This document shows positions 14,088 through 59,112 of a stretch of 64,000 bases of DNA, in pieces. The translations under genes were made by a program, and so were the position numbers. How positions within the stretch are numbered: the stretch's first letter is position 1; each line of letters opens with the position of its first letter. The stretch is taken from the IMG/VR virus record IMGVR_UViG_3300044699_000112, positions 1-64,000 of that record; one strand, 5' to 3'. Origin of the DNA: a virus. Under the pieces are notes generated by a model. It was not told the DNA's origin. It made no database searches and saw only the letters and a list, made by a program, of their open reading frames with translations.

Positions 14088-14096
14088 TGTTATAAA
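14088..14096 (+). promoter_or_regulatory. Candidate extended -10 promoter before scaffold gene
   Basis: TGTTATAAA is one mismatch from the extended -10 consensus TGnTATAAT. It ends eight bases before the ATG at 14105, so the scaffold/capsid mRNA could be leaderless or nearly so. Confidence 0.5.
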
Positions 14097-14104
14097 TATC
14101 TCCA

Positions 14105-15514: not shown

Positions 15515-15559
15515 CCGTCACTCCAGGCGTGGCATTGTTCTGACTCAATAGGGAGAACT

Positions 15560-16816: not shown

Positions 16817-16827
16817 CAAGGTCAAAT

Positions 16828-16855
16828 CGGGGCCGGATATGCCAGCCCGGCCCCG
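16828..16855 (+). terminator. Hairpin after the capsid gene
   Basis: CGGGGCCGG (16828-16836) pairs perfectly with CCGGCCCCG (16847-16855) around a 10-base loop. It is followed by AAAATTATC rather than a T-run, so it may be an RNA-stability or attenuation element that raises capsid mRNA levels. Confidence 0.55.
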
Positions 16856-16871
16856 AAAATTATCCACTTAC

Positions 16872-18126: not shown

Positions 18127-18141
18127 GCGAGGTAACACGCT

Positions 18142-18840: not shown

Positions 18841-18876
18841 CGACATTTACCGTACTGGAGAAAATGGAACACCACC

Positions 18877-19292
18877 ATGTCCTTTGCAACTGAAAAGATT
18901 CCCGGCACTTACCTCTACAAATCCCGCACGCCGCAAGTGGCCAACGGGACGCTCACGCTCGCGCAGTTGAATGCGGGCCAGACTATCGTCGCGCCCGAAG
19001 GCCGACAAATTCAGATCACCGGCTTCCTGCTCCACATGAACGGGACGTTTGGGGGCTTGACCGATATGCGCCTGCAGACCACCGAGACCGTGCCCACGCC
19101 GCTGGTGACCGTCGCGGCGGCCGGTATGGGCGACACGATCATTCACACCGAGACGCTCGGCACGCATGTGATCGCTCCGCAGTACTGGACTCCCTGACCA
19201 AAGGCGCGGGCCTTGCGATCGCCAAGACCGGAGCCGCGGCGACCGGCGGCACCTCGATCGACTACACGGTTCACTACGTCAACGAGGGGTAA
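18877..19292 (+). CDS. Small virion-type protein, apparent -1 frameshift
   Basis: From ATG at 18877 the frame codes a beta-rich protein (YLYKSRTPQVANGTLTLAQL, QIQITGFLLHMNGTF) and stops at 19197. A one-base loss near 19183-19190 would continue it in the next frame as VLDSLTKGAGLAIAK and TSIDYTVHYVNEG to TAA at 19290-19292. That ending is protein-like and abuts the next gene, so I treat 18877-19292 as one gene of about 137 residues. It could be a tail-connector or decoration protein; no family is recognised. Confidence 0.6.
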
Positions 19293-19295
19293 GGG

Positions 19296-21228: not shown

Positions 21229-21240
21229 TACTATCCAGAA

Positions 21241-23253
21241 ATGGCTGACAAGCTGAAGCTGATTGTCACGTCGATTCGCCCCGACGTGAATTCGATCCGC
21301 ACGGCTGGCACGTTCAAACTCGTGGCCGAGGCTCTCGACCGGCTCGACGGTAACGTGGGCAGGACCGCGGGATTCGTCAACGACCTGGAGGTGGGAGGGA
21401 CCACCATCATCAATGAGCCCGGCGAGCCGCCGCCACCGGCCGAGCAAAACCGGGCAGATCTCCTACGAACCCTAATGGCCATCATCTATCCGGACTCCAT
21501 CATTCGCGACCCCTGGGTCAAACACGGCGAGCGTGTTTCGGTGAAGGACTTCGGCGCCGTCTCGGACGGCGTGTCCGATTGCAGTGAGGCGTTCCAGGAA
21601 GCCTACGACTCTGTCGTTGGGAAGGGTGGCGGAAGCATCGACATCCCCGGCGTGGGCACGCCCGGCGAAAGCTACAAGCTCAACACGCCGATCGTGCTCG
21701 ACTCCGACGTACCGATCTCCTGGCTCGGGCAGGGCCGGAGCTCAAAGATCACGCGCGGCGCCGCGCTTTCCGCAAACAAGGGCCTCTTCCATCTCGCCAG
21801 CCCCAAGAACCTCATCTTTCGCAATTTCCTGGTGGACGGAGCAGTCACGACCTCGACTGGGCTCCTCTACTCCGAGTTTGCCAGCAACCCGATGCATCCG
21901 CTGCTAACGTTGAACACGACCTTCTGGGCTGAGGGCGGAGAGGATCTCGAGTGGGACGGCGTGCATATCGAGCACACGGGCGGCTACGCGATCCTTCTCG
22001 ATGCGCGTCTCGTCAACGTCAAGCGCGTGAAGATCCACCGCGGCATGCTTCGCAACAACCGGCCGCACACGTTCGGCACCGCGGCCGCCGATATGATGGA
22101 GGCGACGCGGCGGGTCCGCGGCGTCAAGATCGATTGGGAGCGCCACTTCCCCGAGCTCCTCGCGGGCAGCGCCTCGGTCTACGGATCCTGGACCGGCGGC
22201 ATCCTCGCGCAGAACCAAGCGACCGGCGGCTCGTCGACCAAGGTGCAAGACCTCACCGTCGATCACAACCGCTTCGAGCGGAACACCGGCAACTGCGTGT
22301 GGCAGCACGGCTACGGCTTTGACTCGTTCCATCAGCAGATCCACATCGACTACAACTCGTTCCTCGACTGCGGCCTCGACGGCATCCTCTTTGGCAACGT
22401 GATCGGCGGCTCGGCGATCGGCAACTCGTTCCGCAGGATCGGCTACATCTGCTCGGACGACACCTCGCCCGGCATCCCCCGGTGGCTGCCGAATCTCAAC
22501 GCGACGGGCCTCGACACCTCAGGCGTCGTCAAGCTGGTGAACTACGCGAACAACTCGTTCCTCAACGTGAACGGCGGCGCGATCAACGGGGACGGCTTCG
22601 CCTACGGCACGATCAACGGCAACTCGATCCGCGTCTCGCGCCCCGGTGAACCGGAGTTCAGCGAGGACTCAATCGGCTCCGGGTTCGGCCCCGGCGGCGC
22701 CGGGGCGAACTGGTCCCAAGGCATCGTGCTCGGTAACACCGCGGACAAGGAGGGCGGTCTCGGCGTCACCATCTCTGGCAACTTCTTCGACAACCTGGGC
22801 GGCACCGCGATCGGCCTCTACGCCGCACGCAAGTGCCAAGCGCAAAACAACCTGATCATCGCGCCCGACGCCCCCGGCCAGAACCCGATCATGATCGGCG
22901 GTCTGCTCACCGGCTCCAATCAGGTGGCGCGGGACAACCTCGTCACCGAGAACAGTATTCACTTCAATCCGGCCCAACCGGCCCCGGCGATCTTTGAAGA
23001 TCCCACTTACCGCCCGTTCACACCGGCAGATATGAATCGCGTGGTGAAGAACGTCTGCCTCGGCGGCCCGAATGTTTTCGAGTTCAAGCGCGACCCCAAC
23101 ACCGACACCAAGTGCGCGATTCACTTCACCACCGAGGCAGTGGCGAGCTACTCTTCCGGCACGGGATCGCGCGCGAAGGGATCGGCGAAGGCTCCTCGCT
23201 CCGCTTCTACGCGCAGGACTCGGACCCGTGGGGCAACATTCACATGTCCCTGA
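21241..23253 (+). CDS. Tailspike, N-terminal part with beta-helix domain
   Basis: The first 85 residues are helical and would attach to the tail. Near residue 95 the motif VSVKDFGAVSDGVSDCSEAF is the classic start of a pectate-lyase-like right-handed beta-helix of phage tailspikes. Repeated short strands with Asn/Gly turns follow for about 500 residues (NLIFRNFLVDGAV, DHNRFERNTGNCVWQ, NNSFLNVNGGAINGDG). These spikes bind and often cut surface polysaccharide. After about 23150 the frame becomes Arg/Ser-rich nonsense while frame 0 continues the protein. It is therefore joined to the next entry by an apparent one-base deletion near 23155, giving about 1,630 residues in all. Confidence 0.8.
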   Translation: MADKLKLIVTSIRPDVNSIRTAGTFKLVAEALDRLDGNVGRTAGFVNDLEVGGTTIINEPGEPPPPAEQNRADLLRTLMAIIYPDSIIRDPWVKHGERVSVKDFGAVSDGVSDCSEAFQEAYDSVVGKGGGSIDIPGVGTPGESYKLNTPIVLDSDVPISWLGQGRSSKITRGAALSANKGLFHLASPKNLIFRNFLVDGAVTTSTGLLYSEFASNPMHPLLTLNTTFWAEGGEDLEWDGVHIEHTGGYAILLDARLVNVKRVKIHRGMLRNNRPHTFGTAAADMMEATRRVRGVKIDWERHFPELLAGSASVYGSWTGGILAQNQATGGSSTKVQDLTVDHNRFERNTGNCVWQHGYGFDSFHQQIHIDYNSFLDCGLDGILFGNVIGGSAIGNSFRRIGYICSDDTSPGIPRWLPNLNATGLDTSGVVKLVNYANNSFLNVNGGAINGDGFAYGTINGNSIRVSRPGEPEFSEDSIGSGFGPGGAGANWSQGIVLGNTADKEGGLGVTISGNFFDNLGGTAIGLYAARKCQAQNNLIIAPDAPGQNPIMIGGLLTGSNQVARDNLVTENSIHFNPAQPAPAIFEDPTYRPFTPADMNRVVKNVCLGGPNVFEFKRDPNTDTKCAIHFTTEAVASYSSGTGSRAKGSAKAPRSASTRRTRTRGATFTCP

Positions 23254-31641: not shown

Positions 31642-34600
31642 TTGGCTATAAACGCGAACTCTATCGATCGAGCTCGGCAGGCCGGTTACAACGATGCCGA
31701 GATCATCGACCACATTGCCAGCCTGAAGGGCTACAAGGGCGTGCCCGAAGCACGCTCCGCGGGCTACTCCGACATGGAGATCCTCGGCCACCTGCGGACA
31801 CTCGAAGATCCCGTCAGTACGCCGACAGTGATACCTGGAGCGGAGAAGACCGGCACGCCCGGCATTGCCCCCACAACCCTGCCGAAGGGCCTGGGCGGCG
31901 GACCGGCCGGTTACCAGCCTCCGACCGAGGAGCCCTCGCCCTATGCACTCCCCGGCGCGGGCCTGACCGGCCGCCCCGGCATTCCGGAGGTAGAGCTCCC
32001 GGTGGGCCTCGGCGGCACCAAAGCTCCGTTCTCCACCGCCTACGATCCCTACAAGCGAGTCGGCCGCGCGCTCCCCAATCAGGTGTTCGGGGCGCCGCTG
32101 AAGACCGACGTGGGCGAGCTCGCCAAGCTCAAGGCCAAGGTGGCGCCTGGGTACTTGCCCGACGACGACACCGTTCTGCAAGGGTTCATGGGAGAGCCGA
32201 AGCCGGAGCCCCTATCCGAAGACCCAGGCTACGTAGAACGGATCCAGCACGGGCTTCGCGTAGGCTCCGAAGGAGTCGTATCGAGTGCGCTCAGCGGGGG
32301 CGAGGCCCTGGCCCGCCGCGCCGCCGTAGCACTTCCCAAGAAGTTCAAGCCTATCGCCGAAAGGGCTGAGTGGGAGCTCGCGCAGGCCAATGCCGGTAGA
32401 CCGGAAATGGAGCCAATGCCGGGCTCGAGCGTCCAGGAGCTCGCTGCGGACTCCGATCTCACTCTGAACAAAGTAGGCAAGTACGCTGTGGGATCTACGG
32501 CTCAGGCGATCCCGAGCATCGGGGCCACCGTGATTGCGTCCATGCTGCCGGGCGGCAAGATTGCCGGGCCTGCGCTTTCCTACCTGATGAGCGTGGGCGA
32601 GCTCTACGAGAACAACGTCAACAAGGGAGTCCACCCAGACGAAGCGGCCACGATCGCTGGACTAGGCGGCGGCCCGTCCGCCGCGCTGGACTACCTGGAG
32701 CCGTTCCGCATCAAGGCGGCCCTCACGGGCAAAACAACAAAGGCCCTCATTGAGGAGACGTACAAGAAACTGGGCATCCTGCGGCGGGCCGGTAAGGCGA
32801 CGGCCGAGGGCCTTGTCGAATCCGGCACCGAGATGGGCCAGGAGCTCATTGCGATTCTCTCTGAGTGGTACGGGACCGGGAAAGCCCCAGGCCTCAACGA
32901 GTCGCTCTGGCGGCTCGGCGAGTCTGGCGCCGGAGCGTTTGGCGCGGGCGGCATCGGCGGCGGAGTGCAGCAGGTCAGCGAGGCAAGGCACAACGCCGGT
33001 GCGCGGGCGTGGCAGGACTACCTGGAAAAGGAGAAGGCGGCCAGGGCAGGCGTCGCGCCTATGGCCCCTGGCGGCCCAGTCCCTGCCCCCGGAGCTCCCG
33101 CAGAGGCAGCGCCAGCCGAGGGGGAAGTGCCGCCGCCTGGAGCCGCGCCACCAGGAGCAGCCGCTGCGGGCCCGGCAGCCGATACGGCGCCGCCCAGGCC
33201 GCTCTTCGATAGCCCGGAGGACCTCTACCAGGACGCGACCCAGTTTGCCGGTGGCTTCCGCCAACTCGGCGTGACCGCGCTTTCCCAGAAGTACGGCATC
33301 ACCAAGGACGAGGCACATGCGATCCTCGAGCGTTTTGTTGAGGATGGCCTTTTTGCCGCTAAGCCGCTGAAGGGCGGCGGTGTCAGTTACGTGAACCTCG
33401 CGTTACAGCGCGAAGCCCGCGAGATCGACCCGGCTACCGGCCAGCGTATCCGTTCGCCGATCACCAAGAAGGGGGCCCTCGAAGAAGCAGCCGGGCAGTT
33501 CATCCCTCCAGGCGAGGGCGCGATCGCCCCCGGCGAGGGCCCGGCCGTAGAGGACGAAGAGGCTCCCCTGGCGGCCGCGCCGGTCATCGAGCAGCCGCGG
33601 ACCGAGCCGCCACCACTACCCACTCAACAAGCGCCTCCGCCCGCTCAGCAAGAGGCGCCGCCCCAGGAAGCCGGGCCGCAGCCTGACCAAGCCGACCTGG
33701 ACATGATCTACAGCGCCCCTTTGACCCAGGAGCAACAGGCGTGGGCCGTCGAGTTGCTGGGCCAGGGCCACTCTGTCGAAGACGCGATGGAGATCGCGCA
33801 CCGCGGCGAGGAAGCTCCGGCCGCGCCAGCACCAGTCCAAGCAAAGGAGGAGGCACCACAGAGACCAGAACCACTGCCGTCAGCATCGGAGCAGGCACCT
33901 CCGCCTGCTCCGGCGGCACCAGAGGTCCAGCAGGAACCCCTGGCAGCCGCCAAGCTACCCGAGGAGCAGCAGGCGCCTGCTGCCCAGGCTCCGGCGCCCG
34001 CGGTCCAAGAACCCTTAGAAGCAGCCAAGCCGCCCGAGCAGGCCGCGGCGCCGACAGGTACGCCATTCGACCAAGCGAAAGAGCACGCTAGGGGCAATAA
34101 AGCCATCAAGGCAGATGAGCTTATCCAAGGCTTCGGCCTCACGGCAGACGAGGCCCACAACGTCCTCTGGGATTTGTACCCGGCTCGTATGCGCAAGGAG
34201 AAGGCGAAGGCCATCGCCGCCGAGAGGCGCAGCGCCACCATCGAGGCCAGGAAGGCAAAGGCTGGCCAGCCGGAGCAGAAGCCAGGGCCGACCCCAGCGC
34301 CCTGGGAGATGACTCTGGAAGAGGTAAACCAGACCGGGTACATCGCCCGCGACGTTAACGCCGGGAACATGCCAATCGTGCGGCCCGCCACGATAGATGC
34401 TGGAACCGCGGCGTCGAACGCTTCCGAGCATAAGCGCGTAGTGGCCGAGGCAGTCGCTCAGGGTAAGCCGGTCCCGGCGAAGGTCCTGGCCGAATACCCT
34501 GACTTAGTTGCCATCGATCCGGCAGTTAAGGCCGCCATCAAGAGGCGCGAACGGGAGCGCGCAAAGGCTGCCCAGGCCGCGGCGCCCAAGACTGAACAGC

Positions 34601-37600
34601 AGGAGCCCTTGGCGGCGGCTAAGCCGCCCGAGCAGCAGCAGGCGCCACCTCCCCCAACAACCCAGGTTGCGGCCCCGTCAACTCAGGTTGAGCAGCCATT
34701 GGCTGCCGCCAAACCGATCGAGAAGGAGGCACCAAGTGGCACAGAAGCCAAAGCCGAGGAAGATTTTGCCCTCCCCGCCGGGGATGAGTCGACAGGCGGT
34801 CAAGCACTTCAACGTGGCCCAACTGGCGGCCGAGAAGGCGCGCCTGGAGGGGAAAGACGAGAAGGAGGCGTTCAAGGCCGCACTGCGGAAGCAGTGGAAG
34901 GAAAAGGCGAACTAGACTTCAGCGACGTACCTCTGAAGGCGGTCGCCAAGCCGAGCAGGGAAGGCTTCCTCGAACGGCTGAAGGCGGGCGATGTCAGGGG
35001 TATGTCGGTCGAGGTAATGGGCGCCGTCGCCAGGGGCCTCGTTAAAGCGGAGGACGCCGCGGCTCACATGGTCAAGACCTACGGCGCCAAGGCGAAGGCT
35101 TACGCCAAAGACGTTGCCGCCCAGGTCCAGGAGTGGGAGCAGAACCCGGCGCGCCTCGAAGAGATGGAGGCGTCGACCGCCCTGCCGAAGGGCAAGAACA
35201 AGACGGTTGACCCGATCACCGGCCTCGCCGTTACCGGCTACAACAACGCCATCAAGGACCCGAGCGCCTTTGCCAAGGCGATCGCCCTGATGAACAAGTA
35301 TGTGAACTTCGCCGACATTAACGAGGCGACGCCCGAGGCGACGGCCGAGAAGATGATCCAGCGGATCGTCGACAATCTGCTGTTCCTCCACGACAAGTAC
35401 AAGGAGCTCGGCTTCTCCGAGCGGGCACGTCTCTGGTACGACGGCGGGCGCAAGAAGGTCCTGGCGAACGCCGAAGAGTATGGCATCAACGAATTCCAGT
35501 CCGCCGCGGTGTTAGCCGTGTTCTCGCCGGAGAAGGACTGGTTCCAGAACGTCGACATGGCGCGGCGCATGCTCGAGTGGTGGAAGAACCGCAAGACGTT
35601 GAAGTGGACTCCGCAGATGGACGCCATCTACGTCAACAAGATCCTGCCAGCCAAGAGGAATCAGGACAAGAACACCGCCAAGAAGCGCGAGGCCAAGTAC
35701 CTGAAGGACCGCGCCGAGTTCCCGGCCAAGGTGGCCGAGTGGCGCAAAGCCAATCGCGAGGCGAGGCTCGCCGGGACCGCGAGACCGAAGAGGCCGAAGA
35801 GGCCGGAGCGGAAGCCGTTCGAGCCCAGCACCAAGGTCACCGATGCGCTCGCCGCCATCCAGGGCAAGGGCGCCAGCGAAATCAAGAGCACCTACCAGCA
35901 GGCCGTCTGGTTCCGGCTCTGGGACGAAGCGCATAACAGCCGGAACTACCAGATCATCAGCCCCGAGGGCGAGTACACCGGCCTCGCCATGACCGAGGCG
36001 AAAGAGGGCAAGGTCGGCAAGGGCGGCAAGATCGGCAAGGCGAAGGAAGCTAAGCCTGCCAAGGTGGCATGGTCGAGCTACAACCCGATGGTCAAGGCCC
36101 TGATGGTCCTCAAGGACGGCTCCTTTGAGAACATCAGCAGGCAGGTCGGCCAGCGGCACAAGGTCCGGAACTTTTACAACAACCTCCTCGACCCTGAGAA
36201 CCCCAACGGACACGTCACCTCCGACACACATGCCGTAGCGGCTGGCCTGATGCGGCCGCTGGGCGGCTCGGCGCTCGAGGTCGAGCACAATCTCGGCAAG
36301 GGCGTGGCCTCGGCCCGGACCGGCGAATCGGGCACCTACTGGATGTTCGCCGAAGCCTACCGGCGCGCCGCGCGCGAGCGCCATCTCCTGCCGCGGGAGA
36401 TGCAGTCGATCACCTGGGAAGCGGTGCGCGGGCTCTACAAAAATCTGAAGAGTAAGGCCAATAAAGATCGCGTTGTCGAGATCTGGAATGAAGTGAATAG
36501 TGGTAAAATTACTCCAGGTGAAGCACGTGAAAAGATCTATAAAGAGTTCAACGGAATCGACACGCCAGCCTGGGCCGGAAGCGGAACGGGACGAGGGCGG
36601 GATACTGCAGTTGATGAGGGAAGAGGGGGCGCCAAGGACGAGGAAGGAGTTCTTCGCTTACGCCTACCCGGACCTGGATCCGGAGGAGCCTCTGTCGGTG
36701 GAGGAGGAGGCGGATCTCCCCGAGGACTTGCAGCACGAGTCAATGAGGGAATCCGAAAAGTAGGCGATGCGCTCCGCGCGAGGCATCCGGCCAGTACGAA
36801 TGCCGCTATCGGCGCTTCCCTGGCTGGCTCGGATTACACGTTCAAGACCGGCCCCGGCCAGACCGGCACGGTGTACGCAAACCCGGCGGGCATCGAGTTC
36901 ATCGGCCACCTCACCAACGATCCGCATATCGGCGGAATAAACCTACCGGGCAAATCAGTCGATAACGTTCTCACCTTCATCGACAGCTTCGTCAACGGCC
37001 CGAACCCGAACCGGGCCCAGCTTGCCAAGCTGCAGCCGCTCTACGAGGGGATGGAGAAGTGGCGGCAGGCGAACCCTGGAACAGATGTCTCGCTGAACTT
37101 CGCCGTCCTCGACAATAAGCGCCCCTTCGCCTGGACCCGCCAGACCGCACGCGAAGAGCTCATCCACGGCTTCCAGCGCCTCAAGCAGGTCACCCGTGCC
37201 GCCCGCGAGACCATCCTGAAGACGCCGGTGTTTGAGAAAGCCCGCCTGGATCTGATCCGGCAGGGGTACGGTGACGACGTTGAGATCCGGCCCGGCGACA
37301 CCGCCGACGAGAAGGCCCAGAAGCACTTCATCGCCTGGATGGAGATCACCGCCAAGGTGCTCTCCGGGGACACGCTGGGGCTCACCATCTCCGAGCGCGA
37401 GGACGTGGCCTATGCGTACCGGGAGGCGCTGATCGCCGAGCATGGTGATGACGCCGTTCTCGTTTTCCGCTACCTGAAAGCCGGGTCCGTGAAGGATGTT
37501 TTCCTCGGCAAGAAGCTGCCGGGAGAGGGACTGCAGCGGGCACAGGCTGACCTGCAAGAGGGAGAGGCTGAACTGCAGCGGCTGCTGAAAGAACTACAGC

Positions 37601-40600
37601 AGATACTGGATGAGGAGAAGGCGAAGGGGGGTCCGCTGGCCGACCTCGACTTCGCCGAAGTCGACCTGCCTCACCTGACTGAGCCGGAAGGAGCCCTGAG
37701 GGCCCGCCAGCCCCAGCAGCCCCCGCAGCAGCCACAGACCACCCAGGCCCTGGCCACCACCACCCAGCAGCAGCAAGGCCAGCAGCAGAGCCAGCAGGGG
37801 CCGCAGCAGCCGCGAGGCGCCGGGCCCGGCGGCACCGGCCCCACTGTCGCCCAACGCTTCGACCAGACCAACGCGGCGGCGGAGCACGCGCGCCAGTCTG
37901 ACGAGAAGACGCGCATGGAAAAGTTCAAGGAGGGCATGAAGTTCATTGGCACGGCCTTCACGCGGCAGTTCCACCATATCCCCGCCGGTGCACTCTATGC
38001 CGAGTTCAAGCAGAAGCTGAACTTCGTTTCGAAGAGCCAGGGCAACGCGATCCACAAGGCGGCCCAGGCCATCATCGACCAGTTAGAGAAGCTCGACCCG
38101 GACGAGTACACTCAGTTCCTCCACGTGGTCCTCTACGACGATCTGGCCGCGCGCGTGATCCAGTCGATCAAAGAGAAAAAGCCGATACTCGCCAAGGACC
38201 TGCCGTTGGGCATCCAGGATGCCCGCGAGGTCATCAACTTCAAGACCGAGGCCCGCAACCGCGTCCGCGGCAATCCCAAGATCGTCGAGGCGCTCCGGCA
38301 GCGCAAGGCCATGTGGGACAAGATCAAGCCCGAGTACGTCGCGGCCATGCGCAGGGCTGGCGTCGACGTGTCCAAGGCCGTGGCGCGCAAGGACTACTTC
38401 CGCCATCGCGTGATCAAGCACCAGAAGGCCAAGGAACTGATCGGCGGAGGCGGCACCGGCGCCGGTCAACGCTTCAAGCTGCCCACGGCGCGTAGCTGGA
38501 TGAAGAAGGCCGAGGTCAACGCGAACACCTACTCGCTCGACTACATCCGCTCGGAGTTTGAAGTGCTCTCGGAGATGATGTACGACACCGAGCGCGCCAA
38601 CTTCATCGGCTGGCTCAAGAACGACTCCGGGCACAACATCTCTTCGCAACTGAAGCGGATGGCAGCGGCGCACAACAAGGCCGAAATCATGCCGACCTTC
38701 GCCCGCATGGCGCGCCACTACAACCAGAAGAATCCCCGCGCCCCCAGGATGACCGCCGAGATGGCCTACCAGAAGGTCATGAAGATGCGGCCGCGGGATC
38801 CAAGCTGGCGCACGCGCGTCACCAAGCGGATGGCAGGCGCCGAGTACGTGGGGAGCCTCGAGGCGGCGTATAACAAACTGACGCTGCCCAACGGCAACAA
38901 GGCGCTCGATACCCACGCCCTCTATCAGGCCAACGAGAAGGACCACTTCTTCCTGGCCGCGACCATCCCCGATTCGCTGGCGGCGGCGATCGAGGCCAAC
39001 GGCCAGGGGCGGGTCACGGCCGACAAGATCCGGAAGATCAAAGCCAAGGGCGCCCGCCAGGGGCAGATGGTGCTGCCGCGCGAAGTCATCGAGACCATGA
39101 AGGAGTTCATGCAGCCCCCGAGCACCAAGTGGGGGCAGTTTGTCGACAAGTGGAGCCGCAAGCCGCTGGCGTGGTGGAAGCAGTCCAAGCTAATCCATCC
39201 GGTGGCGGTGATCAAGTACAACCTGCGGAACCTCTCAGGCGACCTCGAGCGCGTGCTGATCACCAACCCGTACGCCCTGAAGCACGTGGGGCGGTCGATG
39301 GATGAGATTCGCAAGTTCATGAAGACCGGCCACCCGCCGAGCCCGGAGTTCGAGGCATGGTGGGAGCGCGGCGGCATGGACGCCAACCTCCAAGTGGCCG
39401 AGATCGGCGAGGTCAACCGGCTGCAGAAGCTCGTCCACCTCAAACTGAAGGATCCGAAACTGGGGCGGACCGAGAAGGGATTCGACAAGGCTGGTAAAGC
39501 CTGGGACGCCGTATGGAATACCACGAGGAAGATGACCGACTTCCGCGAAGGGATCCTGCGCTACGCCACGTTCCTGGAATATCAGAAGCAGATCGCGGCC
39601 AGCGGGACCGGCAAGCCGAACAACTTCGGGGCCTCGATCCGCGAGGAAGTGATGGCGCTCCGGAACATGGACGACCGGGCGTACAAACTCTCGAACGACC
39701 TGATGCTCGCCTACGACGAGGTGAGCGTGGCCGGTCAGACGCTGCGCCGTCACTTCATCCCCTTCTGGTCGTTCCAGGAGAAGAACCTCGGGGCCTACAA
39801 GCGCATGGTGGTCAACTCCTACAAGGACGGGAGGACTTCGGCGGCGATCGGCTATGCCGCGCTCGGCGCCAGCGCCTCGGCCCTGCGCGTGGGCCTCTGG
39901 ACCGCGGCGAAGATCGGCAAAACCCTGACCCTGGCGATGGCGCTCAAGGCACTCACCGAGATCTGGAACAACTATGTGATGGACGACGAGGAGGAGGATC
40001 TCCCCGAGGGCGTCAAGAAGTCGACCCACCTCATCCTGGGCCGGGACTCCAACGGCAAGGTGATCGCGTTCACACGCCTGGGCACGGCCGACGACATCCT
40101 CGAATGGGGCGGCCTCGAAGCGGCGCCCTACTACGTCAGGGAATTCCTCAACAACCGCATGACCTACGAGGATCTGGCCAAGGAGATCGCGCTCCGGCCG
40201 TTTGGCATCCCGCTGCCAATCAAACCGGCCATCAACAAGGTTGCGCAGAGCATCCATCCGGGGATCAAGACCACCGCCGAGTACGTCAGCGGCCGCGCTT
40301 GGTTCCCGAACGTCTTCGATCAGCGCGAGATTCGCGATCGCTACGAGTACATCGCCCGCGAGCTCGGCATGACCGCCGTCTACAAGGCAGCCGCCAGGAA
40401 GCCGCAGCCGAAGTTCTGGACGCCCGAGCGGGTCCTCGACCTGATGGTCTACCGCTACGATCCCAAGGAAACGCACTACAACTCCTTCAAGTACGACAAG
40501 GTGGCCAAGTGGGGCGCCGAGCATGGCGCCGACCCAGGAGGGGGCCTCTCGCAGAAGAAGGCGGCCGCGGCGCTCTACGACCTCCGCATGGCCGTCCGGT

Positions 40601-40878
40601 ACAACGATGACCGGGCGCGCGATGCGGCCCTCGTTGCGTACGGGGAGGCGGGCGGCACCCAGCAGAACCTGAAGAAGTCGATCGAGCGGCTCCATCCGCT
40701 CGGGACGTTGAAGAAGGCTCTGTGGAAGGACTTCGAGAAGTCGCTGAGCAAACCGGAAGCCGCTCAATTGAAAAAGGCTATACAGTTCTGGGAGGAAAAC
40801 TTCCACTCCAAGGTGGCGCAGATTGAAGGCGCCGCTTCCCGGCAAGGTCTGCCGGAGAAAAGAAAGCGAGGAAAGTGA
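31642..40878 (+). CDS. Giant multi-domain ejection protein (3,078 residues)
   Basis: TTG at 31642 follows AGGAG. N-terminus: two copies of an AGYxDxEIxxHI motif (QAGYNDAEIIDHIA, SAGYSDMEILGHL). Near residue 285 is a hydrophobic Gly/Ala segment (GSTAQAIPSIGATVIASMLP). At 534-590 and near 820 are small winged-helix-like units. Residues 1200-1600 resemble the phage DUF7178-type domain (AIKDPSAFAKAIALMNKYVN, AAVLAVFSPEKDWFQNV, DTHAVAAGLMRPLGG). Near 1837 is REELIHGFQ, a HExxH-like motif with the first His replaced. After 2476 comes a large-polyvalent-protein C-terminal module (LPD38-like: WWKQSKLIHPVAVIKYNLRN, LRRHFIPFWSFQEKNLGAYK). Such giants are packaged and enter the cell with the DNA. Confidence 0.8.
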   Translation: MAINANSIDRARQAGYNDAEIIDHIASLKGYKGVPEARSAGYSDMEILGHLRTLEDPVSTPTVIPGAEKTGTPGIAPTTLPKGLGGGPAGYQPPTEEPSPYALPGAGLTGRPGIPEVELPVGLGGTKAPFSTAYDPYKRVGRALPNQVFGAPLKTDVGELAKLKAKVAPGYLPDDDTVLQGFMGEPKPEPLSEDPGYVERIQHGLRVGSEGVVSSALSGGEALARRAAVALPKKFKPIAERAEWELAQANAGRPEMEPMPGSSVQELAADSDLTLNKVGKYAVGSTAQAIPSIGATVIASMLPGGKIAGPALSYLMSVGELYENNVNKGVHPDEAATIAGLGGGPSAALDYLEPFRIKAALTGKTTKALIEETYKKLGILRRAGKATAEGLVESGTEMGQELIAILSEWYGTGKAPGLNESLWRLGESGAGAFGAGGIGGGVQQVSEARHNAGARAWQDYLEKEKAARAGVAPMAPGGPVPAPGAPAEAAPAEGEVPPPGAAPPGAAAAGPAADTAPPRPLFDSPEDLYQDATQFAGGFRQLGVTALSQKYGITKDEAHAILERFVEDGLFAAKPLKGGGVSYVNLALQREAREIDPATGQRIRSPITKKGALEEAAGQFIPPGEGAIAPGEGPAVEDEEAPLAAAPVIEQPRTEPPPLPTQQAPPPAQQEAPPQEAGPQPDQADLDMIYSAPLTQEQQAWAVELLGQGHSVEDAMEIAHRGEEAPAAPAPVQAKEEAPQRPEPLPSASEQAPPPAPAAPEVQQEPLAAAKLPEEQQAPAAQAPAPAVQEPLEAAKPPEQAAAPTGTPFDQAKEHARGNKAIKADELIQGFGLTADEAHNVLWDLYPARMRKEKAKAIAAERRSATIEARKAKAGQPEQKPGPTPAPWEMTLEEVNQTGYIARDVNAGNMPIVRPATIDAGTAASNASEHKRVVAEAVAQGKPVPAKVLAEYPDLVAIDPAVKAAIKRRERERAKAAQAAAPKTEQQEPLAAAKPPEQQQAPPPPTTQVAAPSTQVEQPLAAAKPIEKEAPSGTEAKAEEDFALPAGDESTGGQALQRGPTGGREGAPGGERREGGVQGRTAEAVEGKGELDFSDVPLKAVAKPSREGFLERLKAGDVRGMSVEVMGAVARGLVKAEDAAAHMVKTYGAKAKAYAKDVAAQVQEWEQNPARLEEMEASTALPKGKNKTVDPITGLAVTGYNNAIKDPSAFAKAIALMNKYVNFADINEATPEATAEKMIQRIVDNLLFLHDKYKELGFSERARLWYDGGRKKVLANAEEYGINEFQSAAVLAVFSPEKDWFQNVDMARRMLEWWKNRKTLKWTPQMDAIYVNKILPAKRNQDKNTAKKREAKYLKDRAEFPAKVAEWRKANREARLAGTARPKRPKRPERKPFEPSTKVTDALAAIQGKGASEIKSTYQQAVWFRLWDEAHNSRNYQIISPEGEYTGLAMTEAKEGKVGKGGKIGKAKEAKPAKVAWSSYNPMVKALMVLKDGSFENISRQVGQRHKVRNFYNNLLDPENPNGHVTSDTHAVAAGLMRPLGGSALEVEHNLGKGVASARTGESGTYWMFAEAYRRAARERHLLPREMQSITWEAVRGLYKNLKSKANKDRVVEIWNEVNSGKITPGEAREKIYKEFNGIDTPAWAGSGTGRGRDTAVDEGRGGAKDEEGVLRLRLPGPGSGGASVGGGGGGSPRGLAARVNEGIRKVGDALRARHPASTNAAIGASLAGSDYTFKTGPGQTGTVYANPAGIEFIGHLTNDPHIGGINLPGKSVDNVLTFIDSFVNGPNPNRAQLAKLQPLYEGMEKWRQANPGTDVSLNFAVLDNKRPFAWTRQTAREELIHGFQRLKQVTRAARETILKTPVFEKARLDLIRQGYGDDVEIRPGDTADEKAQKHFIAWMEITAKVLSGDTLGLTISEREDVAYAYREALIAEHGDDAVLVFRYLKAGSVKDVFLGKKLPGEGLQRAQADLQEGEAELQRLLKELQQILDEEKAKGGPLADLDFAEVDLPHLTEPEGALRARQPQQPPQQPQTTQALATTTQQQQGQQQSQQGPQQPRGAGPGGTGPTVAQRFDQTNAAAEHARQSDEKTRMEKFKEGMKFIGTAFTRQFHHIPAGALYAEFKQKLNFVSKSQGNAIHKAAQAIIDQLEKLDPDEYTQFLHVVLYDDLAARVIQSIKEKKPILAKDLPLGIQDAREVINFKTEARNRVRGNPKIVEALRQRKAMWDKIKPEYVAAMRRAGVDVSKAVARKDYFRHRVIKHQKAKELIGGGGTGAGQRFKLPTARSWMKKAEVNANTYSLDYIRSEFEVLSEMMYDTERANFIGWLKNDSGHNISSQLKRMAAAHNKAEIMPTFARMARHYNQKNPRAPRMTAEMAYQKVMKMRPRDPSWRTRVTKRMAGAEYVGSLEAAYNKLTLPNGNKALDTHALYQANEKDHFFLAATIPDSLAAAIEANGQGRVTADKIRKIKAKGARQGQMVLPREVIETMKEFMQPPSTKWGQFVDKWSRKPLAWWKQSKLIHPVAVIKYNLRNLSGDLERVLITNPYALKHVGRSMDEIRKFMKTGHPPSPEFEAWWERGGMDANLQVAEIGEVNRLQKLVHLKLKDPKLGRTEKGFDKAGKAWDAVWNTTRKMTDFREGILRYATFLEYQKQIAASGTGKPNNFGASIREEVMALRNMDDRAYKLSNDLMLAYDEVSVAGQTLRRHFIPFWSFQEKNLGAYKRMVVNSYKDGRTSAAIGYAALGASASALRVGLWTAAKIGKTLTLAMALKALTEIWNNYVMDDEEEDLPEGVKKSTHLILGRDSNGKVIAFTRLGTADDILEWGGLEAAPYYVREFLNNRMTYEDLAKEIALRPFGIPLPIKPAINKVAQSIHPGIKTTAEYVSGRAWFPNVFDQREIRDRYEYIARELGMTAVYKAAARKPQPKFWTPERVLDLMVYRYDPKETHYNSFKYDKVAKWGAEHGADPGGGLSQKKAAAALYDLRMAVRYNDDRARDAALVAYGEAGGTQQNLKKSIERLHPLGTLKKALWKDFEKSLSKPEAAQLKKAIQFWEENFHSKVAQIEGAASRQGLPEKRKRGK
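36614..36763 (+). CDS. Possible overlapping small gene inside the giant gene
   Basis: In the +2 frame of the giant gene, ATG at 36614 opens a 49-residue reading frame: MREEGAPRTRKEFFAYAYP, then DLDPEEPLSVEEEADLPEDL, then a short tail to TAG at 36763. This looks more protein-like than the in-frame Gly/Arg-rich sequence of the giant gene over the same bases, and it resembles small phage proteins of the 'R.GxPxTRxxYLxLAYPxxxPExxxxExExxLPxEL' kind that I recall. Either dual coding or a pair of compensating indels would explain it. No clear ribosome binding site. Confidence 0.35.
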   Translation: MREEGAPRTRKEFFAYAYPDLDPEEPLSVEEEADLPEDLQHESMRESEK

Positions 40879-52060: not shown

Positions 52061-52267
52061 ATGGTATTCCCAAGAATCGTGACCGATCCAACGACCTCCT
52101 CGAACAAGCTCTACTTCATGCCGCAAGACGTGGCGGCGGCGCTGGGCCGACTCTACCTTAAGCTGTACTGGGGCGAGATCACCCAGAGCGAATACGATGA
52201 GAAGGCCCAGATCATCGTCGACGGCGCCAGAACCCGGATCGGTGTGATCCGGAACATAGGTGGATGA
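52061..52267 (+). CDS. Small hypothetical protein
   Basis: The 68-residue product reads VFPRIVTDPTTSSNKLYFMP, QDVAAALGRLYLKLYWGEIT and QSEYDEKAQIIVDGARTR. No family is recognised. Its stop overlaps the next ATG (ATGATG at 52264), so it is translationally coupled. Confidence 0.6.
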   Translation: MVFPRIVTDPTTSSNKLYFMPQDVAAALGRLYLKLYWGEITQSEYDEKAQIIVDGARTRIGVIRNIGG

Positions 52268-52482
52268 TGGAAGACAAAGAGATACTTGAGCGGGTCCGCG
52301 AGGCCATCGCCTGCCTGGACGAGGCCGCCTGGGCCACCCAGATGAACACGCGCGAGCAGCGCAAGCTGCACACCCGCATCCAGGACGCTGGCGACCGGCT
52401 GGTCGAGGTGCGCGAAGAGCTCCAGGTGCGGATCCAGGCCAGGGAAGACCTCCTCCGTGTGCTTGATCGTAAATCGCCGTAA
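52264..52482 (+). CDS. Small helical protein
   Basis: The protein has 71-72 residues, with ATG at 52264 or 52267. It has helices EILERVREAIACLDEAAWAT and QRKLHTRIQDAGDRLVEVRE, then QVRIQAREDLLRVLDRKS. The length and heptads suggest a dimeric coiled coil. Function unknown. A promoter-like region and a structured leader follow. Confidence 0.6.
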   Translation: MMEDKEILERVREAIACLDEAAWATQMNTREQRKLHTRIQDAGDRLVEVREELQVRIQAREDLLRVLDRKSP

Positions 52483-52487
52483 ACCTC

Positions 52488-52517
52488 TTGCGCAACGTTG
52501 AGCTAAGATGGTAGTGT
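52488..52517 (+). promoter_or_regulatory. Candidate promoter with TTGCGCAA palindrome
   Basis: TTGCGC (52488-52493, within TTGCGCAA) and TAGTGT (52512-52517) are 18 bases apart. Transcription would start near 52524, where the structured leader begins. The same palindrome lies at promoter-like sites 5437 and 47096. Confidence 0.4.
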
Positions 52518-52523
52518 AGATCG

Positions 52524-52635
52524 TCGACTCAAGCGGCTCGGACTGATCCCCAAGCCGTGTCGATGGAATTAGCCGGGGTTCCACGGCGGTGCTGCCCTTA
52601 ACAGCGCCGCCCCCGGTGAGCCTTAAGGGGGCACT
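52524..52635 (+). promoter_or_regulatory. Structured mRNA leader with loop complementary to ribosome binding site
   Basis: Hairpin I: TCGAC/GTCGA (52524-52528 with 52559-52563) around CGGCT/AGCCG (52534-52538 with 52553-52557). Hairpin II: CCGGG (52573-52577) with CCCGG (52612-52616), and GGCGGTGCTG (52585-52594) with CAGCGCCGCC (52602-52611, one G-U pair). Its seven-base loop CCCTTAA (52595-52601) is the exact complement of TTAAGGG (52623-52629), part of the purine-rich ribosome binding region before ATG at 52636. The loop can pair with it as a pseudoknot and block translation. Confidence 0.5.
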
Positions 52636-53388
52636 ATGAAAGCATCGAACGGCGCGTCGTCTGACGGGCCAACCATCAAACCAATCGAGACCGTCTACCG
52701 CGGGCACAGAATGCGCTCGCGCCTGGAGGCCCGCTGGGCCGTCTTCATGGACTGCCTCGGCATCGAGTGGGAGTACGAGAAAGAGGGCTATGACCTCGAT
52801 GGCGTCTGGTATCTGCCCGACTTCTGGCTCCCGAAGCAGGGCATGTGGATGGAGGTCAAAGGTTCCGAGACTGGCGACTGGAAAAACAAAGCTGAGAGGT
52901 TGTCTTTACTAAGTGGGCATCCTGTAGCGGTGTTCATAGGTGACTGCGCTCCAGTTAGTCATGCTTCTCCAGGGTTCAGGAATACGGCTAGGATCGCGCG
53001 GGATGGCGTGTGGCAACACCACGCGGGCTGCTGGGTGATGTGCGAAAACTGCAGCCACTGCGAGATCAACGGGCACCGTGATGGCGCATGCCCAGGGCAA
53101 TTCTGCTCTGGGAATATAACTTACTTCTTCTCTTTCGATGGACACTCCCCCAGGATACTAACCGCGTTTGCTATAGCGAAGCATGTTAGATTGGACGACC
53201 GTGAATTCATGGAGAAACTAAGTCCAGCGGCACTTACAGACTACACGGCGAGCGCCGCCGCGAACAAGATGATAGAGATTCTCTCATCCGACTTCGCCAG
53301 GGCGAAGTTCTCCTCCTGCGCAGAGTCCCTCTATGAGGACGTGAACGAGGAAGGGCCGAATTCATTTAACCCAGCCATAGCAGATTAG
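52636..53388 (+). CDS. PD-(D/E)XK-like phage nuclease
   Basis: A 250-residue protein. Residues 18-75 read ETVYRGHRMRSRLEARWAVF, CLGIEWEYEKEGYDLDGVWY and LPDFWLP...WMEVKG. The E...D...ExK layout (Glu in LEARWAVF, Asp in LPDFW, EVK) is the PD-(D/E)XK/VRR-like nuclease core of a very common phage family. The C-terminal part has cysteines (CENCSHC, CPGQFC) and is less GC-rich than the N-terminal part, suggesting a domain fusion or exchange. Translation is probably controlled by the structured leader. Confidence 0.8.
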   Translation: MKASNGASSDGPTIKPIETVYRGHRMRSRLEARWAVFMDCLGIEWEYEKEGYDLDGVWYLPDFWLPKQGMWMEVKGSETGDWKNKAERLSLLSGHPVAVFIGDCAPVSHASPGFRNTARIARDGVWQHHAGCWVMCENCSHCEINGHRDGACPGQFCSGNITYFFSFDGHSPRILTAFAIAKHVRLDDREFMEKLSPAALTDYTASAAANKMIEILSSDFARAKFSSCAESLYEDVNEEGPNSFNPAIAD

Positions 53389-53397: not shown

Positions 53398-54303
53398 GTG
53401 AACGAAGACAATCTGTCTCGCGGCTACGTCGCTCTGTACCGGAGCGTCATCGACAACCCGTTCTACACCCAACTCCCAGGCGATTACTTCAAAGTCTTCA
53501 TCTTCTGCCTCGTCCGGGCCGCCTATAAGCCGCGCCAATACTGGAACGGCCACGCTATGGCGGACCTCCCGATCGGGGCGTTTGTCGCCACGGTAGGCGA
53601 AATAGCGGCGAAAACTGGGGTTTCACAATCGACAGTCAGGAGGGCACTCCAGGCGCTTGAAAACAGCCAGATGGTCGTCACCAAATCGACAAACAAATTT
53701 TCCCTGTATACCGTTGTGAACTTTGAGGCTTACCAGAACGGCAGTCTCATGACCGACAAACAAACGGCAAACAACTGGGCAGACAAACGGCAAACAAGTG
53801 AGCAAACAACTGAGCAGTCCACCGACAAACCACCGACAAACCACCGACAAACATCTGTAATAAGGGAAGAAGGGAAGAAGAAGCTACAGCCGGTTCCTGC
53901 GGACCCGGCGGCAGTTGAGGCGGAGCCCTCCCTTCCCAAGTTCGATAGCGACAAGTTCTTCATGGAGCAGTGGTGGCCGATCGTCTGGTCGAAAGCAAAT
54001 GCCAAGAAAGCGGCAAGGAAGGCTTGGAACCGGATCGTCAAGGACGAAGCCAAGGCCAACTTCCTCACCGAAAGGGCCAAGCTGCTAGGCCCCCGTTACC
54101 TCGCGACTGCCGAAAAAACCGGAAGTACACCGCTATACCCGAGCACATGGCTTAACGACGAGCGGTTCGAAGACGAGCCCTTGCTGCCGGGGTTCGACCC
54201 GCCCCCCGATCCGGCCGAGGAAGCCGCCAAGCAGAAGCGAATCCTGGCCGCGATCAATCGTGACCTCGAAGAGCGCGGACTCCCCCCGCAAGAAAGTTTA
54301 TGA
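53398..54303 (+). CDS. DnaD-like replication initiator/helicase loader
   Basis: GTG at 53398. The 301-residue product begins SRGYVALYRSVIDNPFYTQL, a typical start of phage DnaD-like proteins. A winged helix is at residues 62-96 (VATVGEIAAKTGVSQSTVRR, ALQALENSQMVV). A Gln/Thr/Lys-rich linker (residues 118-155) is encoded by the DNA repeats at 53752-53852. The C-terminal half has MEQWWPIVWSKANAKKAARK and WLNDERF, the region that would load DnaB. It overlaps dnaB by four bases, the expected initiator-loader-helicase pairing. The N-terminal domain probably binds the internal repeats. Confidence 0.8.
   Translation: MNEDNLSRGYVALYRSVIDNPFYTQLPGDYFKVFIFCLVRAAYKPRQYWNGHAMADLPIGAFVATVGEIAAKTGVSQSTVRRALQALENSQMVVTKSTNKFSLYTVVNFEAYQNGSLMTDKQTANNWADKRQTSEQTTEQSTDKPPTNHRQTSVIREEGKKKLQPVPADPAAVEAEPSLPKFDSDKFFMEQWWPIVWSKANAKKAARKAWNRIVKDEAKANFLTERAKLLGPRYLATAEKTGSTPLYPSTWLNDERFEDEPLLPGFDPPPDPAEEAAKQKRILAAINRDLEERGLPPQESL
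53752..53852 (+). repeat. Iterons within the initiator gene, candidate replication origin
   Basis: Three perfect tandem copies of CACCGACAAAC lie at 53820-53830, 53831-53841 and 53842-53852. A fourth core ACCGACAAAC is at 53752-53761. ACGGCAAACAA occurs at 53764-53774 and 53787-53797. The 11-base period keeps the sites on one face of the helix. Origins inside the initiator gene are known from lambda O, so this is the best origin candidate in the window. The alternative is a simple repetitive linker code. Confidence 0.6.
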
Positions 54304-55637
54304 CAGAGCAAACCCTCCGAACCCTAAACCAACTGCTTCCCAATTTGCCCGAGGCCGTTGAAACCGAGAAGCTGGTACTTGGAGTCCTCCTGGACGATCC
54401 GGACGCCACCAGCGCCATCCTGGCGCTAGAGCGGGACGATCTATACCTCGAGCAGCACAAGCGAATCCTCGATGCCGCCCGCTGGTGCGCCGACAACGGC
54501 CAAGAGGTCTCGCTCACCTCGGTCAGCCAGCGGCTCAGCGACATGCGCCACCTCGAAAGCGTGGGCGGCCTCTCCTACCTGAGCGGGCTGGTGATCGTGC
54601 CGAAGGTACTCGACCTCGAAAGCTACCTCGGCCACCTGCGGCTCAAGTCCACGCTCCGGCGGGCCGCGATCGCCCATGCCAAGTTCGCCGAGGAGTGTTG
54701 CATGCCGGGCGCCGGTGCGGAAGTCCTGGCCTCGGCCGAGGTGTTTATGAGGGATCTCGGCTCTCGCGCCAGGACAAGGCCCGGCCCGCGCGGGTTTGAA
54801 GAGCTCCTCGACGCTGAGTATGGCGGCAGTTTTGCAAAATTCCTGGAGGCTCCCAAGCGTGCAGCCGTGCCGACTCCCTGGAAAAGTCTCAACAAGTTGC
54901 TGACCGGCGGCGGGTTCATGCCCGGCCAGTTGGTGGTGATCGGGGCCCTGCCGGGCCTGGGCAAGAGCGCCGCGGCGGCAATGATCGCCCGCTTCGCCGC
55001 CAGCCAGGGCGTGATCATCTTCTCGCTCGAGATGGACGCTCGGGACATCTGGCTCCGCATGATTGCCTCGCACGCCGAAGTCCCCTTGCAACCGCTCAGC
55101 GAGGGCGTGAAATTCGAGGACGAGGCCGCCCGGCGCCGGATCGCGGCGGCCGGGAGCGAACTGTCCAAGTTCCCCCTGCGGATCGACGACTGGAGCGGAT
55201 CGAACGTGGCGGCGATCATCGCGGCGGTCAAGCGGGTCAAGGAGGTCAAGCTCGTCATCGTCGACTACCTGCAACTCCTCAAGCCGCTGCACAAGGTGAG
55301 CAACCGCGTCGAAGCCGTGGGCGAGCTCAGCCGCGGCCTGAAGCTGGCCGCCAACGAGTTGAAGCTCCCGTTCGTGGTCCTCTCCCAACTCAACCGGGAG
55401 ACCGCCAAGAACGACCGGCCACCGGAGCTCTACGACCTGCGCGAATCTGGCTCCATCGAGCAGGACGCCAATACCGTGATGTTCCTGCACGCCAACCAGA
55501 AGGAGTTGCGTGCGGCGATCGACAACCACCGGCCCAACGAGATAGACCTGATTGTCCGCAAGCAGCGCAATGGCAGGACGGGGACCGTGAAACTTGTGTT
55601 CACGCCGTCCACGATGCGGATTGTAGAGGGGGCGTAG
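54300..55637 (+). CDS. dnaB: Replicative DNA helicase DnaB
   Basis: A 445-residue hexameric helicase. The N-terminal domain has VETEKLVLGVLLDDPDATSA and YLEQHKRILDAARWC. The RecA-like domain has WKSLNKLLTGGGFMPGQLVV, Walker A GALPGLGKSA near residue 215, SLEMDARDIWLRM, Walker B KLVIVDYLQLL, VVLSQLNRE, and LRESGSIEQDANTVMFLH. The Walker A is slightly unusual (LPGLGKS for RPSMGKT). Length is normal. It is co-transcribed with the initiator and ends at an intrinsic terminator. Confidence 0.95.
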   Translation: MTEQTLRTLNQLLPNLPEAVETEKLVLGVLLDDPDATSAILALERDDLYLEQHKRILDAARWCADNGQEVSLTSVSQRLSDMRHLESVGGLSYLSGLVIVPKVLDLESYLGHLRLKSTLRRAAIAHAKFAEECCMPGAGAEVLASAEVFMRDLGSRARTRPGPRGFEELLDAEYGGSFAKFLEAPKRAAVPTPWKSLNKLLTGGGFMPGQLVVIGALPGLGKSAAAAMIARFAASQGVIIFSLEMDARDIWLRMIASHAEVPLQPLSEGVKFEDEAARRRIAAAGSELSKFPLRIDDWSGSNVAAIIAAVKRVKEVKLVIVDYLQLLKPLHKVSNRVEAVGELSRGLKLAANELKLPFVVLSQLNRETAKNDRPPELYDLRESGSIEQDANTVMFLHANQKELRAAIDNHRPNEIDLIVRKQRNGRTGTVKLVFTPSTMRIVEGA

Positions 55638-57668: not shown

Positions 57669-58303
57669 AGCGGCAGCCACTTCTCGAACCGCTTCACGGC
57701 CTTGTGCAGCGCCTCCAGCCCTCCCGCTTCGGTCCTCGCCACGGCTTCCAAAATGGGAAGTCCACTATCGATCGATGCCTGGACCTCGGCCCTGGTAGCC
57801 TCCCGTCCCTCGCAGATCCAGTCCACCGAAGAGGGCTCGCCCATCTGGATCAGCGGCCCCGTCTCCGTTTTGAAGACCTCGTACTCGCGGGTCAGCCAGA
57901 GCATGGCCACACCGGGGTTGCGGGCGATGACCATACCGGCCGTGCCCTCGCGCAGCGTGTCGTTGTTGATCCGCTCGTCCTCGCGGCGCACCATCTTCGG
58001 GTTCGACAGGAACGGGCAGTTCTTCGCGCTCCAGGTGGCGCACTCGTAGTGCGAGGGCGGCTCGGACGAGGTGCGGTTGACGCCGCACATCGGCCCGGCC
58101 ACGAAGACCTTCCAGATGCCCAGGCGCTCGCCGCAGACCCAGCAGAGCTTCTGCTTGATCGCGGCGACGAGCTTGTAGGGGTCCATCCCCCGGAACTCTG
58201 GTTTGCCGTCGAGATAGGGGACGAACCAGGGAATGGGCAGCCCCGAGTCGGTGAGCTTGAGCGAGCGCATGCGCGCCGGTAGCGTTTCCATGTTGACGGT
58301 CAT
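57665..58303 (-). CDS. Conserved phage protein with CWVCG...C...C motif
   Basis: The 212-residue product reads LTDSGLPIPWFVPYLDGKPE, KQKLCWVCGERLGIWKVFVA, GPMCGVNRTSSEPPSHYECA, CPFLSNPKMVRRED and GMVIARNPGVAMLWLTREYE. This order (PIPWFV, LCWVCG, FV.GPMC.VNR.sSEPPSH.eCA..sa..CPfL) identifies a widespread phage protein family of unknown biochemical function, with a likely zinc-binding core. It is complete and of normal length. Confidence 0.85.
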   Translation of the reverse strand: MTVNMETLPARMRSLKLTDSGLPIPWFVPYLDGKPEFRGMDPYKLVAAIKQKLCWVCGERLGIWKVFVAGPMCGVNRTSSEPPSHYECATWSAKNCPFLSNPKMVRREDERINNDTLREGTAGMVIARNPGVAMLWLTREYEVFKTETGPLIQMGEPSSVDWICEGREATRAEVQASIDSGLPILEAVARTEAGGLEALHKAVKRFEKWLPL

Positions 58304-59112
58304 AACTTGATGTAGTCTCCTGCCGGATCCATCAGCAGGTCCACTGCCGACAGGTACCGGGACGTGGTCTGAATGCTGGCGTGTCCCAGGAACGCCTGGA
58401 TGCCCTGGAGCTTGGCGCCGCCCTTGTGCGAGAGCGCGGCAGCCGTCCGCCGCAAGTCATGCGGAGCGAGCCGTGGCACGCCGATCCGCGCTCCCGCTGC
58501 CTTCACGATGGCATGCACGTGGTCAGCCGACAATGCCTCCTCCATGACGTGGCCCCGGTAGGTGCGGCGCCAGACGGGCCCGGTGCGGATCGCGCCCGCG
58601 GCGAGCCACTCCTCGAGGAGCCCGGCCGTCCATGAGTTGAGCGCGAGCGACCGCAGGCGGCGCCCTTTGCCCGTCAGGTCGGTGATGCAGAGGCGCCCTT
58701 CGAGCGTCTGCAGGTGCGAGCAGTCGAGCGAGACGAGCTCGGCCCGGCGGAGCGCGGCGCCGCAGAGCATCCCGAGCAGCGCGCGGTTGCGCAGGCCCAC
58801 CAGCGGCTCGCCGGGCTGGCGTTCGACGAGGGCCGACACCTGGGCCGCCGAGAGCCACGTGCCCAGACGCACGCCGCGGATCGGCATCGACTTGAGCTCC
58901 TGGATCTTCGGGTCGGCCTCCTCTGCCCTGGCCTTGAACTTCAACGCGCTGAGCTTGACGTTGCACGTGCTCGGAGCGGCGCCGTTGTCCCTGTAGTTGG
59001 CGATGTAGGCCCGCACGCCCTCGGCGGTCAGCGGGCCGTCGAAGTCGCGATAGACGGCCGCGTAGCGCGCCCGCGAGTGCGGACTGTTGAGGCTATCGAG
59101 ATTTGCGTACAC
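58300..59112 (-). CDS. Tyrosine recombinase (XerC/D-sized integrase)
   Basis: A 270-residue protein with a core-binding N-terminal domain (NSPHSRARYAAVYRDFDGPL) and a catalytic domain. Catalytic residues: Arg122 in AALRRAEL, Lys149 in LTGKGRR, His218 and Arg221 in PHDLRRT, His244 in FLGHAS and nucleophile Tyr253 in TSRYL. The size matches XerC/D-type enzymes without an arm-binding domain. It could integrate the phage, resolve genome multimers or use host dif. It sits inside a leftward operon of small genes. No attachment core or excisionase is recognisable beside it. Confidence 0.92.
   Translation of the reverse strand: MYANLDSLNSPHSRARYAAVYRDFDGPLTAEGVRAYIANYRDNGAAPSTCNVKLSALKFKARAEEADPKIQELKSMPIRGVRLGTWLSAAQVSALVERQPGEPLVGLRNRALLGMLCGAALRRAELVSLDCSHLQTLEGRLCITDLTGKGRRLRSLALNSWTAGLLEEWLAAGAIRTGPVWRRTYRGHVMEEALSADHVHAIVKAAGARIGVPRLAPHDLRRTAAALSHKGGAKLQGIQAFLGHASIQTTSRYLSAVDLLMDPAGDYIKL

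Follow-up and report, generated by a model that had tools for sequence, protein, structure and literature searches.

A structured leader in front of a phage replication operon

We wondered whether the mRNA leader in front of a phage replication operon might serve as a genetic switch and, if so, to which gene it belongs and what it might respond to. The leader lies in a stretch of 64,000 nucleotides, hereafter the window (bases 1-64000 of an uncultured virus record of 74,233 bases in total). On the + strand of the window an early gene cluster ending in a small ORF (52264-52482) is followed by the intergenic leader and by the replication operon, which encodes a nuclease, a helicase loader and a replicative helicase (Table 1). 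The nuclease domain is N-terminal, with the motif EARWAVF...YLPDFWLP...MWMEVKG read from the translation, and the C-terminal half of the protein is Cys-rich. Besides the PHROG given in Table 1, the nuclease matched Holliday-junction resolvase and endonuclease PHROGs (E 1e-9); a search for Pfam families gave no match.

The leader fold spans 52521-52629 and consists of a 5' domain of two helices (P1/P2) and, behind it, a hairpin (P3/P4). The 10-bp stem, the five-pair extension and the preceding hairpin that an initial annotation of this DNA had described were all found in the sequence (as P4, P3 and P1/P2), and the exact complementarity it had noted between the loop CCCTTAA and TTAAGGG in the Shine-Dalgarno (SD) region was confirmed. 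The nested fold of 117 nt had an energy of -51.3 kcal/mol (z = -2.27, ViennaRNA). Two other pairings were considered and discarded. A local hairpin GCC...GGC closing the SD occurs in about half of the related leaders described below and was not adopted because it overlaps the pseudoknot or is missing in the other members, and a tertiary pairing between the loop and AGCC was dropped because it fails in several of them.

Table 1. Leader and operon features in the window; helix percentages refer to hand-drawn segments.
Feature	Position	Strand	Evidence or detail
Putative promoter	52488-52517	+	-35-like TTGCGC 52488-52493, 18-nt spacer, -10-like TAGTGT 52512-52517
5' domain P1/P2	52521-52566	+	pairing and covariation over 13 leaders; also in MAFFT alignment
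P1	52521-52527 with 52560-52566	+	98.9% standard pairs, 13 leaders; 4 doubly compensated pairs
P1/P2 junction, AA at its end	52528-52532	+	
P2	52533-52538 with 52553-52558	+	100% standard pairs, 13 leaders; 4 doubly compensated pairs
Apical loop region of 5' domain	52539-52552	+	
Interdomain linker AATTAG	52567-52572	+	alignments; AAU or AUU start in nearly all members
Pseudoknot hairpin P3/P4	52573-52616	+	MFE fold; double changes in P4
P3, CCGGG/CCCGG	52573-52577 with 52612-52616	+	extends P4
5' bulge between P3 and P4, 7 nt	52578-52584	+	
P4, 10 bp, GGCGGTGCTG/CAGCGCCGCC	52585-52594 with 52602-52611	+	7 doubly changed pairs
Loop CCCTTAA, 7 nt (pseudoknot 5' strand)	52595-52601	+	exact complement of 52623-52629
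Connecting strand TGAGCC	52617-52622	+	alignments; AGCC kept in clearly alignable members
TTAAGGG, SD region and pseudoknot 3' strand	52623-52629	+	ends 6 nt before ATG 52636
PD-(D/E)XK-like nuclease, 250 aa, first gene of operon	52636-53388	+	phrog_21138, E 1e-27
DnaD-like helicase loader, GTG start	53398-54303	+	phrog_2514, E 5e-24
DnaB-like replicative helicase	54300-55637	+	PF03796, E 3e-64

A scanner for hairpins of at least 9 bp with a loop 7-mer complementary to the purine-rich SD of an ORF returned a single site across both strands of the 64-kb window, which is the leader described here. The same scanner found one site in total in 60 dinucleotide-shuffled windows. On the window alone, complementarity that arose by chance and has no RNA function is only modestly improbable, and the evidence for the pseudoknot is suggestive rather than proof.

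The putative promoter ends 3 nt before P1. In most of the 13 leaders known to us a comparable pair was present (TTGC.., 17-18 nt, then a TAGAAT/TAGACT/TAGGAT-like hexamer) and ended 3-4 nt before P1; the fit was less good in the window (TAGTGT) and in L262. The consensus scanner reported no sigma-70 site in 52300-52800, and since it misses the putative promoter, the latter is weak in the window taken alone. The promoter-like site of the initial annotation is therefore backed by comparison across most of the 13 leaders and not by the consensus scan of the window. An intrinsic terminator or attenuator was also considered and rejected, as no terminator-like site (GC-rich hairpin plus U run) was found in 52300-52800.

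Loop and SD sequences change together in related leaders

Relatives were gathered using patterns on the conserved parts and a neighbouring gene as a marker. This yielded 13 distinct leader versions in 17 uncultured-phage records, with the same helices in all. A viral-contig search centred on the nuclease gave only two close relatives. L002 is the nearest distinct nuclease relative, with a protein that is 90% identical, and its leader has diverged far more than the gene: with the loop CCTAATC and the SD region GATTAGG, the pseudoknot has been rewritten in a matched fashion. The last four leaders, from 73-kb phages, were found with a protein marker and a profile search that used no pairing pattern, and they still pair loop and SD (CTCCTAT/ATAGGAG, CCCTCCA/TGGAGGG, CCTTCTTT/AAAGAAGG and CTCCTAG/CTAGGAG). 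In L264, P3 and P4 are exchanged for unrelated yet complementary sequences, P3 being swapped whole.

In each phage genome a covariance model found a single strong copy, always at this location; G003 gave one additional marginal match (E 0.016). The related phages L267 and L268, in which the gene order differs, contain no leader according to the covariance model and to reading through, and the leader is also absent from G007/G008. BLASTN found none in phages and plasmids, cultured phages included. A genome-contig pattern gave mostly chance matches, and among the matches listed none joins loop:SD pairing with the remainder of the leader; copies in prophages may still exist. Matches to the first loose pattern were likewise mostly due to chance, and L372, the sole addition of the final pattern, lacks the leader and has ORFs that look RNA-phage-like by eye.

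Pairing between loop and SD comprised 7-9 bp in all 13 leaders, which together use 11 different loop/SD combinations. All pairs were Watson-Crick in 12 of them, and L128 has 9 bp including one G-U. When each loop was compared with all 13 leader ends, pairing with the SDs of other phages averaged 4.3 bp. None of 200,000 permutations of the partners matched the observed sum, an outcome that did not change after identical combinations were collapsed to 11, and double changes were found at all seven pseudoknot pairs. Among the tests with hand-drawn segments this loop:SD test is the least biased, since manual delimitation was confined to the loop and the search covered the complete leader end. In the hand-drawn helices 96-100% of pairs were standard, and each helix had 4 to 7 doubly changed pairs; these values are inflated because the boundaries were drawn with the pairing already known. 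A test based on an unedited MAFFT alignment is free of such segments: 82.2% of cells pair, compared with 38-52% (maximum 51.9%) with slid partners, and P1 and P2 are recovered as well. Its covariation score was 0.290 versus 0.162 in shuffles, with none of 500 shuffles reaching the observed value; like the loop:SD and helix statistics, it treats the sequences as unrelated and ignores kinship throughout.

As the refutation test that the initial annotation had named for its pseudoknot reading, homologous leaders were checked for covariation. Covariation was present, and with the pairing kept in 13 of 13 leaders despite changed sequences, the reading held. We judge the comparative evidence for the leader pseudoknot to be decisive. 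Since all 13 leaders retain the pairing although their sequences differ, chance complementarity is already refuted by the comparative data and is practically out of the question.

At the base of P2 a G-U and then a C-G are invariant, and AA precedes them in nearly all members. The apical loops of the 5' domain (52539-52552 and relatives) are of two kinds, built around UAGCU or UGAUC, with cores that are self-complementary. This alternation could reflect loop-loop dimerisation or another contact.

The leader persists while the genes behind it are exchanged

The link to the nuclease drawn in the initial annotation did not survive the comparison. The first gene is the nuclease in three of the 13 leaders (the window, L002 and, as a more distant version, L068). 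In the other ten it is a DnaD-like loader (L019, L030, L034, L126), a DUF1376/primosomal protein (L128, L265), a replication initiator of other families (L062, L262, L264) or an unassigned protein (L263), thus a recognisable replication gene in nearly all. An autogenous nuclease operator, which needs the nuclease always downstream, was rejected on these counts, and nuclease autoregulation is unlikely. The leader belongs to the first-gene position of the replication operon and not to the nuclease. Because it persists while the controlled genes swap, the nuclease can no longer be the general regulator, and the same probably holds for every protein of the operon.

A broader form of autogenous repression would let an operon or nearby phage protein bind the leader, stabilise the pseudoknot and limit its own synthesis, like T4 gp32, uS15 or uS4. 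Pseudoknots at ribosome binding sites are classic operators of such repressors (PMC535899, PMC10931766), and the replication setting parallels T4 gene 32. Candidates exist, since nearly all members have phrog_503-like and orf52264-like genes upstream of the leader, at distances between a few hundred bases and about 2.8 kb. However, each of nuclease, loader and DnaB has been replaced in other phages that carry the leader, and the widely shared upstream genes are also present in the leaderless G007/G008. We regard this explanation as rather unlikely, though worth keeping in mind.

The genomes G000-G004 have many virion genes in common (60-93% identity), whereas the nuclease, loader and DnaB of the window are not shared; phages whose virion genes are closely related thus retain the leader and exchange the genes behind it. 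These different replication genes beside shared virion genes in G001-G004 are a clear sign of module exchange. Between window 8652-23250 and G001-G004 (L344-L359; 73-kb uncultured phages), the terminase is 83-84% and a capsid-like protein 91-93% identical. No close cultured relative was found, the best terminase matches being below 30% identity.

Several other features of these genomes were recorded. The proteins at L263:7105-7962 and L264:6165-7034 have similar C-terminal halves (SKARWEVDDQ...) and unrelated N-terminal halves, which suggests that the L263/L264 initiator underwent domain swapping. The product of a 3078-aa ORF (window 31642-40875) resembles giant proteins of G001-G004 (43-69% identity), and its first 500 residues gave no PHROG match. 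On the - strand (window 58303-59112) there is an ORF that by eye is tyrosine-recombinase-like, with relatives in L002, L019, L126 and G001-G004; it hints at a temperate lifestyle. The leaderless L267 encodes in the same region (5975-6319) a QueD-like protein with an HGHTYRI motif recognised by eye, suggesting 7-deazaguanine metabolism.

A model for control of replication-protein synthesis

The helices, the loop:SD pairing with its compensatory evolution, the position of the leader and its independence from the identity of the first gene are established here. We consider it likely that the leader is a conserved cis-acting mRNA switch over translation of the phage replication operon in which the 5' domain biases the pseudoknot, and very likely that it is a real, previously uncatalogued genetic switch. 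The promoter immediately upstream would start the transcript no more than about 3 nt from the foot of P1/P2. The P3/P4 hairpin would form next, its loop would pair with the first replication gene's SD, and the resulting pseudoknot, by occluding the SD, would keep the 30S subunit away (OFF state). Opening of the knot would free the SD and allow translation of nuclease, loader and helicase, or of whichever replication genes are present. The candidate sensor comprises the linker and the conserved AGCC strand together with the 5' domain, in which the G-U/C-G base is invariant and the junction ends in AA; the signal that biases the pseudoknot would be something other than the product of the downstream gene.

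With regard to the trigger, we infer that a host metabolite or host protein is a better candidate than a protein of the operon. Nuclease autoregulation is also less likely than a signal or metabolite derived from the host, or than a conserved phage factor encoded outside the operon. We prefer a sensed molecule or host factor because unpaired positions of the 5' domain are conserved and none of the phage proteins was seen to track the leader. The most specific version of this switch, a riboswitch-type class confined to uncultured phages whose 5' domain detects a host metabolite or protein and gates replication-protein synthesis through the SD pseudoknot, is an attractive but tentative proposal.

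Rough energies of the knotted and unknotted states, which assume a pseudoknot penalty of 9 kcal/mol, differ by about 5 kcal/mol or less (-5.4 to +3.6), a closeness that a switch would require. In most members the gap between the two states is just a few kcal/mol, so that a small input could shift the balance. In L030 and L128 another nested fold, in which loop and SD pair as an ordinary stem, has the lowest energy. Because the connecting strand of 6-7 nt must span P3 and P4, coexistence of P3 and the pseudoknot may require bending at the bulge; alternatively, the two may be mutually exclusive.

Closely balanced states would also suit a fixed brake or timer, in which an unregulated pseudoknot lowers or delays translation by slow folding or refolding, or shields the 5' end from RNases. 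The covariation demands loop:SD pairing alone, and such a brake predicts the same covariation. A simple brake would, however, have no use for the 5' domain and for the conserved AA junction, AGCC and invariant G-U/C-G, and we think it unlikely.

In IncI and IncB replicons, a replication gene is governed by a leader pseudoknot. These plasmid rep leaders offer a precedent for antisense-type or ribosome-loading control, in which loop pairing would aid initiation and a trans RNA would compete. Stable pseudoknots are described as able to serve as ribosome standby sites (PMC7708055). Nevertheless, a consensus scan detected no antisense promoter on either strand, and the pairing covers the SD itself, which favours occlusion over help with initiation; control of this kind is very improbable.

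Comparison with known systems

The initial annotation had likened the form of the leader to autoregulatory RNAs or compact translational riboswitches and could not match it to a known class, and both statements still apply. In the window and six related loci no Rfam 15 match reached the gathering threshold, and permissive Rfam scans gave only chance matches far below threshold. No published description of the leader was found in the literature searched, subscription papers being mostly outside its coverage. To our knowledge, regulatory RNAs that are the phages' own have rarely been documented. A control element that is kept while replication genes swap suggests that what the module conserves is regulation and not protein. 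Should the leader sense a host signal, it would provide a direct RNA link from host state to the replication decision, and its 13 aligned sequences form a family ready to probe.

The preQ1 classes are compact translational riboswitches, as is SAM-II. In SAM-II, the leader pseudoknot occludes the SD and is stabilised by the ligand (PMC9373788), and our leader resembles it in placing a pseudoknot over the SD. It differs in having a separate two-helix 5' domain, a bipartite P3/P4 hairpin and no Rfam match, and in regulating phage replication genes rather than metabolism, with a sensed ligand that is only a candidate. The covarying loop:SD pairing provides the SD-hiding structure expected of a translational riboswitch, which speaks to pairing alone and not to switching.

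uS15 requires a U-G/C-G motif with both G on one strand. The only invariant wobble of the leader is a G-U followed by C-G, with G and C on the same strand, and a uS15-type operator was rejected. Like our leader, the uS15 (rpsO) and uS4 (alpha operon) operators are pseudoknots that embrace the ribosome binding site of an operon's first gene (PMC10931766), but the genes behind the leader are not ribosomal. The T4/RB69 gene 32 operator is likewise a leader pseudoknot on a phage replication mRNA, in which the knot lies 5' of the SD and of UUAAA repeats and nucleates gp32 binding (PMC535899). Here the SD is inside the knot and the downstream gene varies; an operator of that type, with a knot 5' of an unstructured SD and an SSB gene, does not match first genes that encode a nuclease, loader or initiator. 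Melnitz-like marine phages carry glutamine riboswitches (PMC9004378), which share with the leader a riboswitch form on a phage. Those represent a known bacterial class that was borrowed, whereas the present leader has been seen only in phages. As it lacks the defining features of SAM-II, gene 32 and the ribosomal-protein operators, we file the leader as a new family of a known general kind, namely SD-occluding pseudoknot leaders that are riboswitch-like in form.
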